A stretch of 44,133 bases of DNA from Stagnimonas sp. (lineage in GTDB: Bacteria; Pseudomonadota; Gammaproteobacteria; Nevskiales; Nevskiaceae). The stretch spans positions 1 to 44,133 of the forward strand of contig JAUSQI010000052.1 in NCBI GenBank assembly GCA_030652575.1, written 5' to 3'. The translations under genes and the position numbers were made by a program. The stretch's first letter is position 1; each line of letters begins with the position of its first letter. The notes beneath the pieces were generated by a model. The model worked only from the letters and a program-made list of their open reading frames with translations. It made no database searches and was not told the DNA's origin. This document shows positions 1,144-7,059 of the stretch, one piece after another.

Positions 1144-2751
1144 ATGGAAGCAGATTTCGTGATCGTAGGTGGCGGCTCGGCAGGTTGCGTGCTGGCCAAT
1201 CGCCTGAGCGCCGACGGCAAGTACACCGTAGTGCTGATCGAAGCCGGCCCGCCGGACAAGAGTGCGTTCATCCATATGCCGGCGGGCATCATCCCGGTGA
1301 TCCGCAGCGACACCTACAACTGGAAGTACTGGACCGCACCCGAGCCCGAGATGGGCAACCGGCCGATGTTCTGGCCGCGCGGCCGCACACTGGGCGGCAG
1401 CAGTTCGATCAATGCCATGTGCTACCTGCGCGGCCACGCCTGGGACTACAACCATTGGGCCGAGCTGGGTTGCAGGGGCTGGGGCTACGAGGATGTGCTG
1501 CCGGTGTTCCGGCGCATGGAAAACTTCGAGCCCTGCGAGGGGCGGCCAGATGCCTTCCACGGCGTCGGCGGGCCGCTGAATGTGGCCGCGCACCGCTACA
1601 TCAATCCGCTGATGAAGGCGTTCATCACAGCGGCTCAGGAGGCGGGTCATGCCTACAACCCCGACTTCAACGGGGCGCAGCAGGAGGGCGTGGGCTACTT
1701 CAACGTGATGCAGAAGGGCGGCCAGCGTTGCAGCAATGCCAAGGCCTATCTCGACGACAAGGTGAAGGCGCGCGAGAACCTCACCATCCTCACCGATGCC
1801 CATGTCGCTGGCGTGCGCTTCGATGGCACTCGCGCCGTGGGTGTCACGCTCAAGAGCGCGCCGGGCGAGATCACGGCGCGGCGTGAAGTGATCCTGAGCG
1901 CCGGTGCCATTGGCTCACCGCAGTTGCTGATGCTCAGCGGCGTTGGCCCGGCCAAGCATTTGCAGGAGATGGGCATCCCGCTGGTGCACGACAACGCCGC
2001 GGTGGGCGAGAACCTGCAAGACCATCTGGATGTGACGGTATCGGTGAAGGAACGCACGCGCCATGCGGTATCGCTCAACCCCTTGGGACTGCCGCGCTCG
2101 ATCAAGAGCGTCTGGCAGTACGTCACCAAGAAAGAAGGCGAGATGACCAGCAACTTCGCGCAGGCGGGCGGCTTCATCAAGAGCAATCCGAAAGAGCCGA
2201 TCCCGGACATCCAGCTGCACTTTGTGCCGTTCGTCTACTCCAATCACGGCACCGACCTGGGGCCGATTCTCAAATACTGGGGCTACACGCTGATGGCCTG
2301 TGATCTGCGCCCCAAGAGTCGCGGCGCGATCACCCTCGCCAGCACCGATCCGATGATCCATCCCCGGATTGAGGCGCGATATTTGCAGCACGAAAGCGAG
2401 ATGCAGCGCCTGCTGACGGCAATCATGAAAGGTCGTGAGATTCTCGCGCAGCCGGCGTTCAAGGCGCATCGCGGCGAAGAGCTGCTGCCGGGTTCGGAGC
2501 TGCGTAGCGACGACGAGCTGCGCGAGTGGATCCGCCAGAAGGCCGAGACGATCTACCATCCGGTCGGCACTTGTAAGATGGGCACCGACGACGCGGCCGT
2601 CGTCGATTTGCGCTTGAACGTGCGGGGCGTGACCGGCCTCAGGGTGGTGGATGCCTCGATCATGCCAACGCTGATCGGCGGCAACACCAATGCGCCGACC
2701 ACTATGATTGCGGAGAAAGGCGCGGAGATGATTCTCGCCGACCACCGATAG
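1144..2751 (+). CDS. GMC-family FAD oxidoreductase (choline/alcohol dehydrogenase-like)
   Basis: A 535-residue glucose-methanol-choline oxidoreductase. The Rossmann FAD motif VGGGSAG lies at about residues 8-14. The GMC signature [13 protein letters not shown] follows, then the second signature [15 protein letters not shown]. The C-terminal catalytic block carries [10 protein letters not shown] (active-site His) and [16 protein letters not shown]. Length is typical of bacterial choline-dehydrogenase-like members, which oxidise alcohols with FAD. The substrate cannot be read from the sequence; medium- or long-chain alcohols and polyethylene glycol are common alternatives to choline. The ATG at 1144 has a strong GGAGGAG site 5 bp upstream, which excludes longer in-frame starts. 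It heads a + strand group, with the lipoprotein gene 9 bp downstream. Confidence 0.93.
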
Positions 2752-2760
2752 GGAGCAGCG

Positions 2761-3339
2761 ATGCGGAAGTGTGCAGAGCGGGTAGGGATGACCTTGGCGG
2801 TAATGACGTTGAGCGCCTGCGCGCAACTGACCACTGGCGCTGAAACCGCCGCACAGCTGCCACGCGCGGCGGTGGAAGGCACCTATGGGTTCTTCGAAAC
2901 GCTGTTCGCCCGCGAGGAGCTGTCCGTGGAAGTCGTTGAAGTGGGCCGCTTGCCCAATTGCAACTCCACCGGCCGCGAGCCCTCGCTGGAGATGTTTGCC
3001 GATGCAGCCGCGGTCAAAAGCTGGCAGCAGACACGCGGCGTGGCCTTTACGCCATCGGGCGCCGAGCCGCCGCCGGGCATCTATGCCGTTGTCGAAATGG
3101 GTGAGCGCGGCACCGGCGGCTACAGCCTGGCGGTGAGTCGGCAGGCGGCGATCCGGGACGATGTGCTGTATCTCAAGGGCAGCTTCCTGGTGCCGGGCAA
3201 TTCCTCGATGGTTATCCAGGTGCTCACCAGCCCTTGTTCCCTGGTGCGCGTGCCCACGCGCAGCTACAACCGCGTCGTGTTGCTCGATCAGTCCAACAAC
3301 GTGCGCACGAGCTGGTCTGCGCCCGGTTTCAAGAATTGA
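2761..3339 (+). CDS. PrcB-like lipoprotein
   Basis: A 192-residue exported protein. Residues 1-20 form a lipoprotein signal ending in the lipobox L-S-A-C with Cys20 as the acylated residue. The C-terminal half has a GGYSLAV...DVLYLKGSF...PGNSSMVIQVLTSPC pattern. This resembles the PrcB C-terminal domain, known from a protease-complex subunit of Treponema and found in many small lipoproteins of unknown role. No catalytic motif is visible. It lies between the GMC oxidoreductase (9 bp) and the acyltransferase (17 bp) and is probably co-transcribed with both. Lipoprotein status is well supported. The PrcB assignment is from pattern memory and moderate; no function is claimed. Confidence 0.75.
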   Translation: MRKCAERVGMTLAVMTLSACAQLTTGAETAAQLPRAAVEGTYGFFETLFAREELSVEVVEVGRLPNCNSTGREPSLEMFADAAAVKSWQQTRGVAFTPSGAEPPPGIYAVVEMGERGTGGYSLAVSRQAAIRDDVLYLKGSFLVPGNSSMVIQVLTSPCSLVRVPTRSYNRVVLLDQSNNVRTSWSAPGFKN

Positions 3340-5088: not shown

Positions 5089-5564
5089 GTTTTTTTCTTC
5101 GCCGTCACCCAGATGTTGATGATCGCGTCGAAGACGATCTCGCCGCGGGTATCGAGCACATCGACCTTCACCGGCAAATCGAATCCAGCCGGGCCGTAGA
5201 CCGTCTTGGGGTCGATCGTCGCCACGGCGCGCAAGTCTGTCTCCGCTTTCTTGAGATACCGCACGCTCATGCTCTTGGGCAGCCAGCGGTGGGTCGCCGG
5301 TAGCGTCGCCTCGGCCACGATGCCCATCGCCGCTTCGGCCATGTTGCAGATCGCGATGGCATGAAAGGTGCCAATGTGGTTGTGCACGGCGCGGCGCTTT
5401 TCGGCGGTGAGTTCGGCGCGGCCAGACTCCACGGCCTCGAATCGCGGCCGCACGGTGGCGAAGTAGGGCGCCTTGCGGCTGATCGCCTGGGAGAACAGCC
5501 ACTTGCCGCCGGGCTTGCTCTTGAGGGTGTTCCAGAGTTTGAGCACGGCACTGGGTTTGGACAC
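5085..5564 (-). CDS. DUF4442 hotdog-fold protein (possible acyl-CoA thioesterase)
   Basis: A 159-residue protein with the DUF4442/hotdog pattern: an N-terminal helix with FSQAISRKAPYFATV, the central N-H-I-G-T-F-H-A-I-A turn and helix with N-M-A-E, and a final strand INIWVTAKKK. Hotdog proteins of this type are related to PaaI-like thioesterases, but many have no assigned substrate. A GTG start at 5564 is chosen because GGAG lies 7 bp upstream and the family N-terminus begins there; a longer open frame upstream lacks family character. It converges on, and overlaps by 4 bp, the TfpX-like gene. Confidence 0.82.
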   Translation of the reverse strand: MSKPSAVLKLWNTLKSKPGGKWLFSQAISRKAPYFATVRPRFEAVESGRAELTAEKRRAVHNHIGTFHAIAICNMAEAAMGIVAEATLPATHRWLPKSMSVRYLKKAETDLRAVATIDPKTVYGPAGFDLPVKVDVLDTRGEIVFDAIINIWVTAKKKT

Positions 5565-5653
5565 GGGATGACTCCGATGAGAAGGGCGATGCCGATGTGG
5601 CAAGAGTAGACAGGGAGGATCATCCCTGTGATGCGGCGCAGACAGCAAGCCCC

Positions 5654-5888
5654 ATGTCATTTGGCCATCTGCGCGCGCCATTTTGCGCTTCCGTTGTCTT
5701 CGCCGCCCTGCTCGCAGTCTGCGGTGACTCGAGGGCTCGCCGGTGCGATATGGCTTCGCGAGATCGAAACCATCGAGGGCATTCGCGAATGGAACAAGGC
5801 GAAAAACTTTGCCGATACCTTGCCCGGTACCGACTGCGTGACCATGCCGTATCAGGATCGCGTCAGCTGGGTGCACCGGGTCGGCTAG
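5654..5888 (+). pseudogene. Small secreted-protein ORF, apparently frameshifted
   Basis: Two partial frames look like parts of one gene. From the ATG at 5654, one frame encodes a plausible lipoprotein signal (ASVVFAALLAVCGDS, with Cys as a lipobox candidate), then turns into Arg-rich non-protein-like sequence. The next frame, from about 5735 to the TAG at 5886-5888, reads as normal protein (WLREIETIEGIREWNKAKNF and on to SWVHRVG). A one-base shift around 5715-5750 would join them into a ~78-residue secreted protein. The family was not recognised. Alternatives are an intact 86-codon ORF from 5628, whose N-terminus looks unnatural, or chance. Base composition here is lower in G+C than in the flanking genes. 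Confidence 0.4.
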
Positions 5889-5909
5889 GAGAAACCCTGA
5901 CCTTGTTCC

Positions 5910-5944
5910 CCCGCCTGCGGGAGGGGGGCTAGGGGAGAGGGAGC
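5910..5944 (+). repeat. GC-rich REP-like repeat, left copy with hairpin
   Basis: A short G-run repeat at 5919-5944 (GGGAGGGGGGCTAGGGGAGA, then GGGAGC) is preceded by a small palindrome CCCGC-CT-GCGGG at 5910-5921. A nearly identical 24-base copy lies inverted at 6176-6199, so the two bracket the DUF559 fragment. Repeats of this composition are common intergenic elements in proteobacteria, often beside DUF559 genes; that link is from general knowledge. Confidence 0.6.
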
Positions 5945-5962
5945 TTTTGCTAGGCTCGAAAC

Positions 5963-6226
5963 ATGCGAGAGCGTCAAGCCAAACTAACCAATGCCAAAGC
6001 CTTACGGGTCGGGCAGACCGATGCAGAACTTAGGCTTTGGTACTACCTTCGAGCCCATCGACTCGGTGGGTTCAAGTTCAAGAGGCAGGTTCGTCTCGGC
6101 CAATTCATCGTTGACTTTGCCCGCCTTGAAGCCAAGCTCGTTATCGAGCTCGATGGCGGCTCTGCCGTGAAAGAAGCCCCTCTCCCCAACCCCTCTCCCG
6201 GAACCCCAGATCGAACTGCCACATGA
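5963..6226 (+). pseudogene. DUF559 (Vsr-like) endonuclease, internally deleted
   Basis: The first ~65 codons match the DUF559 family, a PD-(D/E)XK/Vsr-like endonuclease domain: RERQAKLTNAKALR, then LRLWYYLRAHRLGGFKFKRQ, then FIVDFARLEAKLVIELDGG. Full members run ~110-130 residues and continue with the QH motif and a C-terminal RxL-RFWN block; both are missing. After ELDGG the frame goes straight into a 21-codon tail (KEAPLPNPSPG...) encoded by the right-hand repeat. The simplest reading is an in-frame internal deletion that removed the second half of the nuclease core. The residual ORF stop overlaps the start of the next gene. Probably inactive. Confidence 0.75.
6176..6199 (-). repeat. GC-rich REP-like repeat, right inverted copy
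   Basis: GCCCCTCTCCCCAACCCCTC, then TCCC, on the + strand is the reverse complement of the 5919-5944 copy apart from a few substitutions and one indel. It supplies the last codons of the deleted DUF559 ORF and ends 23 bp before the DUF486 start, leaving that gene without a clear Shine-Dalgarno sequence. Confidence 0.6.
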
Positions 6227-6576
6227 ACTTGCCTGTTCTCGCCCAAACCGCCGGCCTGCTGCTCATCAGCAATGTGTTCATGACCTTTGCCTGGTACGCG
6301 CATCTCAAGGACGCCACCCAGAAGCCCTTGTGGATTGCGATTTTCGCGTCCTGGGGCATCGCGTTTTTTGAATACGCGATCATGGTGCCGGCCAATCGCA
6401 TCGGCTTTGCCGGCGCGTTGTCGCTGGGGCAATTGAAGATCCTGCAAGAGGTCATCACCCTCGCGGTGTTCGTGCCGTTTGCAGTGTTCTACATGAAGCA
6501 GCCGATGCGACTGGATTTTCTCTGGGCTGGCCTCTGCATGTGCGGCGCGGTGTATTTCATCTTCCGCAGTGCGTGA
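6223..6576 (+). CDS. DUF486 / DMT-family small membrane protein
   Basis: A 117-residue, very hydrophobic protein with four predicted membrane helices (about 7-25, 36-55, 63-92, 98-114). FMTFAWYAHLKD near the N-terminus and SLGQLKILQEVITLAVFVPF in the middle are characteristic of DUF486, a small branch of the drug/metabolite transporter superfamily. Substrate and physiological role are unknown. The ATG at 6223 fits the family N-terminus, but no good ribosome-binding site precedes it because the GC-rich repeat ends just upstream. It converges on the DUF3224 gene with a 9 bp gap. Confidence 0.88.
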   Translation: MNLPVLAQTAGLLLISNVFMTFAWYAHLKDATQKPLWIAIFASWGIAFFEYAIMVPANRIGFAGALSLGQLKILQEVITLAVFVPFAVFYMKQPMRLDFLWAGLCMCGAVYFIFRSA

Positions 6577-6585
6577 GTTTCCAGC

Positions 6586-7059
6586 TCAGGGCAGGGTGTA
6601 GTCGAAGTCGTAGTAGTGCTTGCCGCCCTCGATGCGGATCGCCATTTTCCCTGTCAGCCCGGTCAATTCATCGCTGCCGGAATCCGGCACGACGACCACT
6701 GAGAGCTGTGGTGCGCCGCGCGTCATCAGGCCGCTGTGCTGCAGCGCGAAGCTGCCTTTCTTGCCGTCCAGCGTGCCGCTGACCTGTTCGATGGCGACAT
6801 AGGCGGCCGAACCTTCCACGGCCGTCATCGCCGCCAGCATTTCGCCCTTGCCGGTGGCTTTGAGGGGGCCGTGGTACTGCTTGTCCAGCGCGCGGCGACC
6901 GAAGTAGGGCGGGGCGTGTTCGTCTGCCAGGGCAAGCGTGGGCATCTTCACCTCGAAGAGGCCAGTGGCGTGTTTCTGTGTCATGGGTTTCTCGGCTGTG
7001 GATTGGGCGGGCGCGGTGCTTGCGATCAGCAGCAGTGCCGCAAACAGCATAGTACGCAT
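6586..7059 (-). CDS. DUF3224 exported protein
   Basis: A 157-residue protein with a cleavable signal (residues 1-19, MRTMLFAALLLIASTAPAQ) followed by a DUF3224 domain: a beta-rich barrel with KATGKGEMLAAM, GTLDGKKGSFALQHSG and the C-terminal GKHYYDFDYTLP. Members of this allene-oxide-cyclase-barrel-like group are of unknown function. The ATG at 7059 is chosen over a GTG at 7080 because GAGAGG lies 6 bp upstream. That site overlaps the stop codon of the upstream methyltransferase-like gene, which implies translational coupling in a two-gene minus-strand operon. Confidence 0.88.
   Translation of the reverse strand: MRTMLFAALLLIASTAPAQSTAEKPMTQKHATGLFEVKMPTLALADEHAPPYFGRRALDKQYHGPLKATGKGEMLAAMTAVEGSAAYVAIEQVSGTLDGKKGSFALQHSGLMTRGAPQLSVVVVPDSGSDELTGLTGKMAIRIEGGKHYYDFDYTLP

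Follow-up and report, generated by a model that had tools for sequence, protein, structure and literature searches.

Near the left end of a stretch of Stagnimonas sp. DNA of 44,133 nucleotides (the window), a shortened gene for a DUF559 nuclease lies between two GC-rich repeats in inverted orientation, which raises the question of whether such a repeat and such a nuclease belong together and move together. The following features of the window are needed to address it.

5628..5888, plus strand: remnant of a penicillin-acylase-type gene, longer in the same-genus genome G002, recognised by identity to the G002 gene upstream of DMT_6
5908..5942, minus strand: left terminal repeat, BoxC/PIT/TM-like, recognised from its sequence as the inverted partner of the right repeat
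5963..6226, plus strand: truncated DUF559 nuclease open reading frame (ORF), 87 aa (PF04480 positions 4-66 of 109, E 6.2e-21)
6158..6164, plus strand: probable deletion junction after ELDGG, its exact point as we infer it from alignments A1 and A2 and the model of full-length relatives
6177..6207, plus strand: right terminal repeat, CCCCTCTCCCCAACCCCTCTCCCGG..., outer hairpin arm gone, recognised from sequence and inverted pairing
6223..6576, plus strand: DMT_6 (DUF486) gene, right neighbour and reference for the empty-site comparison (PF04342, E 1.3e-44)

The whole decayed unit occupies positions 5908-6207 and consists of a DUF559 gene stub between two inverted GC-rich repeats. The original prediction, made from the window alone, described these as nearly identical over about 25 bases; the inverted pair is there (left 5908-5942, right 6177-6201, extending to 6207), and the likeness was slightly overstated, as the arms of 16-17 nt show 82-88% complementarity, the two repeats are set apart by several substitutions and an indel of one base, and the outer hairpin arm is missing from the right one. 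Read on the minus strand, the left repeat is CCCTCTCCCC-TAG-CCCCCCTCCCGCAGGCGGGGG, with a third arm on the gene side and an imperfect hairpin on the outer side, all three arms being imperfect. In terms of hairpin stability, neither repeat folds better than its shuffles, and no stable hairpin is predicted for the right one. The right-repeat pattern occurs once in the window at zero mismatches (with up to three mismatches, the shuffled expectation is 0.06, any match being found in 5 of 100 shuffles), and it is not dispersed in the 3.44 Mb window genome (G000), where, with up to two mismatches, it is found in four places including the right copy itself, the same as for the reversed control. The strict BoxC/PIT/TM consensus, CCCTCNCCC-N-GGGNGAGGG-N-GGGNGAGGG, has no match in that genome, the window copies being decayed.

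The ORF matches PF04480 with 74.8 bits (cut-off 20.6) over 63 of the 109 Pfam positions, and the match breaks off directly after ELDGG, at about 6160. Residues 1-66 are derived from the nuclease (62.5% identity over 64 aa to the full-length protein of locus L103) and residues 67-87 are encoded by the right repeat and its flanks, as had been predicted, with a stop codon that overlaps the start codon of DMT_6. About 40 nuclease codons have thereby been lost together with the right outer hairpin arm. Since the invariant His and Asp (H62 and D69 in alignment A2), the last strand and the helices lie past the break in full-length relatives and their model, the window copy lacks the complete DUF559 catalytic set and core fold, and its protein should be inactive. 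A full copy elsewhere in the window genome, which the original prediction proposed to look for, did not turn up: in a profile search, the sole DUF559 match is the window copy. In the 801 bases around the locus there is no Rfam match up to E 1, a promoter and terminator scan of 5500-6600 gave nothing above chance, no tRNA gene was found in the window, and PADLOC returned no row for the window ORF or for YcjD, the E. coli DUF559 protein, its only related row being a weak DpdF one for L195 (E 0.0032).

The site itself is found without the unit in G002, where 66 nt separate DMT_6 from the upstream gene, whose product ends in SWVHRVGYEKP; in the window, the same two neighbours enclose the DUF559 unit, and the empty site foreseen for a relative is thus present. 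The upstream gene, which we take to be of the penicillin-acylase type, is an internally deleted remnant in the window, and its last codons mark the left insertion edge. It is identical to the G002 gene at 84% over 25 aa and 64% over 33 aa, in two parts about 1 kb apart, and has no Pfam match; compared with G002, this is a second deletion adjoining the window repeats. DMT_6 orthologues are found in G002, G003 and G004, the latter two with other upstream genes, and no DMT_6 was found in G001, the fifth genome of the genus. Truncation, loss of the right hairpin arm and a same-genus genome without the unit support the view, already taken in the original prediction, that the window copy is a dead remnant, produced by ordinary decay, of a nuclease-repeat unit.

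How general such units are was assessed with a flank test that assumes no motif: 250 bases to the left of a gene are compared with the reverse complement of 250 bases to the right, and a score of at least 16 is counted as positive. DUF559 matches are present in 145 of the 398 genomes of the phylum. In a first sample of 80 hand-picked loci (one per genome, the better-scoring among the matches listed, with contig edges avoided and weaker matches left out), matching inverted repeats lie on both sides at 53 of the 80 DUF559 loci, versus 13 of 2570 control windows within these loci and 5 of 430 other genes. The second sample comprises the best 80 of 575 relatives of alignment A1, from named genomes, and spans Chloroflexi, Nitrospirae, Planctomycetota and Melainabacteria among others. 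Here 61/80 DUF559 loci are positive, or 58 after removal of three doubtful rows (L203, with a run of N; L270, poly-C; L228, other sequence), versus 11 of 2099 windows and 2 of 146 other genes, a result to be read with A1 consisting largely of flanked loci and possibly favouring flanked lineages. One genome is common to both samples (L112 and L239 are identical). Matching ends within 250 bp are absent at 27/80 loci of the first sample and 19/80 of the second (22 counting the doubtful rows), and no such repeat is seen at L029-L033, five weak matches to DUF559 in relatives. The same test was negative at all of the 30 best Vsr loci. Y1_Tnp loci (28 of 30, two fragmentary rows being left out) were positive in 13 cases, or 19 with 500-base flanks, mostly through GTAG-type REPs, which shows that the test picks up the established link between RAYT and REP; no TM pattern lies within 250 or 500 bp of any of these 28 loci, though all of their genomes are TM-rich. 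With one mismatch allowed, the strict TM-type pattern is present within 250 bp of 35/80 DUF559 loci. Similarly flanked DUF559 units are therefore common in relatives and across bacteria, as the original prediction had supposed.

The two ends of a unit also belong to each other. Among 69 units in 22 genomes (two to five units examined in each, for some genomes only part of their DUF559 matches), the median score of an end against its own partner is 31.75 and that across units 13; a score of at least 16 is reached by 54/69 units versus 48/174 cross pairs, and the own end is the best match in 44 of the 50 units that score at least 16 and have such a sister unit. That unit ends match each other better than sister ends argues against a chance landing of the gene among generic repeats. 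Units are found in virus catalogues as well: IMG/VR holds 37 loci, of which the best 25 were tested, one of them at a contig edge, and 19 of the remaining 24 score at least 16, a count that includes two near-duplicate pairs, comes without control windows and takes viral status as catalogued. In phage records, the 66-aa window fragment has no match and YcjD has 11, three of them covering most of the query. It is nearly certain that the repeat and the nuclease make up a single unit.

BoxC is a long-known, unexplained bacterial repeat. The majority of the repeats at DUF559 loci consist of a hairpin and a third arm, CCCTCTCCC...GGGAGAGGG-TTGGGG-TGAGGG and variants, and, judged by their sequence, they are mostly the BoxC/PIT/TM motif described in the accessible part of PMC4666352. 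All three arms are present in the repeats of many relatives, and those of Bradyrhizobium (L238) and Hyphomicrobiales (L255) are among the ones with a second small hairpin before the third arm. In 142 units with an end score of at least 20 (sets of 42, 49 and 51), the third arm, oriented by its excess of G over C, points toward the gene in 101 and away from it in 17, with 24 unclear cases. By our reading of Table 1 of PMC4666352, the five E. coli TM pairs given there divide into four that face inward in this way and one that faces outward. The link extends to whole genomes. The strict BoxC/PIT/TM consensus is present in 87/398 genomes of the phylum, and at least two copies of the strict TM pattern occur in 62/103 genomes with a DUF559 match of E 1e-20 or better versus 18/295 others, among which the window genome (E 4.9e-20, no TM) is counted; a Mantel-Haenszel test over 12 families gave p 6e-15, with hand-chosen family strata and with genome and count tables transcribed by hand. 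The figure of 62/103 understates the link, because the strict pattern misses lineages with differing repeats. At least ten TM copies are found in 10/295 genomes without a strong DUF559 match, three of the ten having weaker ones. Repeats strewn without regard to DUF559, which would have spoken against the original prediction, are thus not what is seen, the tie holding both by locus and by genome. In G012, such repeats are also arranged in direct arrays, recurring about every 160-215 bases (G012:C9:295010-295833 and G012:C4:101633-102428); in the scan that shows these arrays, the partial mirror symmetry of the repeat makes the reversed pattern of little use as a control, and the strict TM pattern hardly matches reversed.

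Evidence for movement comes from units inside host genes, empty sites and duplicate copies. At 14 of 20 loci, which had been selected because their open frames were long or their neighbours shared, the unit sits in frame within a recognisable host protein: MetH (G008, G019 and G003), HrpA (G012 and G031), a CoA-transferase (G002, G003 and G004), the front of TadA (three genomes), and AsnB, HsdR and HsdM (one each), these host names being in part our assumption. Pfam host domains are found on both sides of DUF559 in MetH, HrpA, AsnB and HsdR. The MetH reading frames with the unit have 1424-1465 codons in the three genomes, and among 28 loci displayed the MetH linker contains DUF559 in 3 and none in the other 25. 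Within the genus of the window, metH carries the unit in G003 and is without it in G002, G004 and G000. When G003 is compared with G004 and G002 at the base level, the unit spans hairpin to hairpin, with about 20 extra bases on its left side. The target duplication that the original prediction proposed to look for is absent at metH, the one site compared base by base, where the relatives have diverged. In the metH genes of L278 (G003) and L276 (G008), the nuclease has no Met of its own between left repeat and domain, and may be produced solely within methionine synthase; in L276, its conserved His reads Arg. The MetH linker can hold other additions: in L299 (G029), from a different genus, it carries another translated palindromic insert, HPREGGDP...RLRGDD, and in the window's own genome (L303, G000:C146) it has about 30 extra residues without DUF559.

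Two copies in G442 are 96.9% identical over 619 bp and have unlike flanks; their agreement begins shortly ahead of the gene and extends over the right end, and their left ends are only partly alike. L268 and L324 have a common unit of about 540 bp with sharp edges, the ends of which are more alike than the middle, that is, the gene. Several units (L006/L012; L010/L016/L034) keep their position between species, as in vertical descent, which indicates insertion followed by vertical descent. Matched terminal inverted repeats and empty sites, as expected of a transposon, are both found in the relatives, with the window as one decayed case, and the unit very probably is or was mobile.

The nuclease itself is under purifying selection, with dN/dS of 0.04-0.28 in 12 hand-chosen pairs (three in-frame host contexts included), the lowest value resting on saturated dS. 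E16, D45, D58, H62 and D69 are invariant in 36 full-length sequences (alignment A2). A structure model of full-length DUF559 (pLDDT 92) matches the folds of 3hrl (Z 16.1), of I-Bth0305I (3r3p; Z 11.6 over 88 residues) and of Vsr (1cw0; Z 10.2), with similar scores for mitoribosomal proteins of Toxoplasma and Tetrahymena (Z 9.6-10.4). 3hrl is the Neisseria gonorrhoeae DUF559 protein of L180 (E 5.6e-66), and in that locus (2351-3130) its gene lies amid decayed BoxC-type repeats on both sides. Full-length relatives have the residues and, by the model, the fold of what we take to be called the EDxHD type; the window copy does not have the full set. According to the accessible parts of two papers, a Thermosynechococcus DUF559 gene is already filed under EDxHD homing endonucleases (PMC9403480), and an SOS response in cells lacking a cytosine methyltransferase depends on the Caulobacter DUF559 protein VsrA (PMC12907096).

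In E. coli, the DUF559 protein YcjD is encoded between sapF and fabI. Close copies of ycjD are present in 3365/5426 complete E. coli genomes (sapF in 5372), with a median of one copy and a maximum of two places per genome, and nothing points to current movement in E. coli. In MG1655, a distance of 167 bases separates ycjD from TM_ECO no. 9 of PMC4666352 (1351204-1351239), which follows it and, contrary to most units, points its third arm away from ycjD. A TM copy in the usual orientation lies directly behind ycjD in strain KE47 (L178) and looks decayed in the K-12-like L187; no left repeat stands beside ycjD in the two loci read. Five ycjD-less genomes that were read have eef efflux genes at the site, and eefRABCD is described as alternating with the ycjD haplotype in the available portion of PMC12817139; as a case of haplotype replacement with eefRABCD, the ycjD site was rejected as a clean empty site. 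The TM pattern is absent in the eef haplotypes L192 and L193 and present in the ycjD haplotypes L178, L187, L190 and L191.

The reading that we favour, and hold to be fairly probable, is that of a one-gene mobile element in which an EDxHD/Vsr-like DUF559 nuclease is carried between BoxC/PIT/TM-type ends, the window copy being dead. An intact element would measure about 390-760 bp and consist of a small DUF559 nuclease (domain of about 105 aa) between two inverted repeats, each end being a GC-rich hairpin at the outer edge together with a third homopurine/homopyrimidine arm, as a rule directed toward the gene. The nuclease would recognise its own folded ends and nick or cut DNA, and the unit would then be copied via break repair or replication restart, in the fashion of homing and with no strand-transferring transposase; action on its own ends is plausible, with about as much to be said for it as against, and the copying route, modelled on homing, is a guess by analogy. 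Short gene-less repeat pairs, such as four of the five E. coli K-12 BoxC pairs, would be non-autonomous derivatives. We more tentatively suggest, as a possibility slightly short of an even chance, that this is an undescribed class of element, in which a stand-alone EDxHD/Vsr-type nuclease spreads itself and gene-less repeats through cuts made at or across its folded, triplex-forming ends and can lodge in core proteins, where it is translated in frame as a domain, with YcjD as the agent or a domesticated relic behind the BoxC family. The open-access literature searched (PMC, with subscription papers and most preprints lying outside it) contains, in the text available, no link of DUF559 or YcjD to BoxC, PIT or REP repeats and no report of nuclease action on the repeats, and within these bounds the DUF559-BoxC link is unreported.

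Could the nuclease instead be a passenger, merely landing between BoxC/TM sites that are recombination-prone structures of other origin? TM sites in E. coli are highly variable, as stated in the accessible text of Holder et al. 2015 (PMC4666352), and some genomes have many TM copies and no strong DUF559 match. We nevertheless regard this as improbable: random landing would not yield ends matched far better to each other than to sister ends (44/50 units), the window genome has no dispersed repeat by pattern search, yet both copies flank its only DUF559, and the ends of L268 and L324 are more alike than the gene between them. Slightly less probable still is that a trans-acting transposase moves anything placed between such ends, with DUF559 as accidental cargo. 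Short gene-less inverted pairs, such as those of E. coli in Table 1 of PMC4666352 and others among the listed sites of G260 and G277, would fit such an enzyme, yet one gene family fills the units in many phyla (DUF559 being the family searched for), and Y1_Tnp is not near TM in any of the 28 loci tested.

A better case can be made, though we still think it unlikely, for a domesticated pair, in which the nuclease has a job in the cell, such as very short patch repair or the processing of TM structures, the repeats are its substrates or regulatory sites, and past spread was due to occasional recombination. Purifying selection on the nuclease, unit positions kept between related species and the absence of signs of current movement in E. 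coli all agree with this, as do the SOS role of Caulobacter VsrA (PMC12907096) and the behaviour of RAYT genes as housekeeping genes rather than transposases (PMC8266576), each as given in the accessible part of the source. The in-frame insertions in metH, hrpA, asnB, hsdR and hsdM, however, look like spread and not service, as do the two near-identical copies in one genome, and Vsr genes proper are without such repeats.

If the one-gene mobile element is the right reading, the large DUF559 family, still named as a domain of unknown function, would gain a possible biological context, and intact copies may explain the spread of BoxC. The tie of BoxC/PIT to one nuclease family can be put to the test in E. 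coli K-12, ycjD and TM_ECO no. 9 being close neighbours there. The nuclease has settled in frame inside core enzymes, and no splicing element is seen around it.

Several known systems resemble the DUF559 unit in part. The BoxC/PIT/TM_ECO triplex repeats share with its ends the three-arm layout and a sequence core, but, in contrast to the nuclease-carrying DUF559 units, the accessible part of PMC4666352 reports neither a mobility gene nor a gene function shared by the surroundings of TM sites, and the words 'nuclease', 'endonuclease', 'DUF' and 'Vsr' do not occur in it. MITEs and insertion sequences likewise have terminal inverted repeats and internally deleted copies; unlike them, the DUF559 unit shows no target duplication at the one site read, and DUF559 is not a known transposase. 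Rickettsia palindromic elements are also palindromic DNA lying in frame in protein genes and translated, but they are about 150 bp long and encode a short peptide (PMC10969869, available portion), whereas the DUF559 unit carries a nuclease. The EDxHD homing endonuclease I-Bth0305I (3r3p) and Vsr have the fold of DUF559, in which E16, D45, D58 and H62 are spaced as given for VsrA in the text available, with D69 two residues further on. EDxHD homing endonucleases and DUF559 are both present inside conserved genes; the DUF559 domain, however, is short, without the long DNA-binding region described for I-Bth0305I in the accessible part of PMC3943268, no intron or intein was noticed around it, and its unit, unlike those endonucleases, is bounded by hairpin ends. 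REPtrons (RAYT/TnpA_REP) have a Y1/HUH transposase between GTAG-tagged REPs, whereas the enclosed gene is here the EDxHD/Vsr-like DUF559 nuclease and the repeats are GC-rich and of the triplex type. In both systems, one gene lies between inverted hairpin repeats matched to it, with gene-less repeats elsewhere in the genome, and the DUF559 unit would thus be a parallel to RAYT/REP built on a chemically different enzyme.
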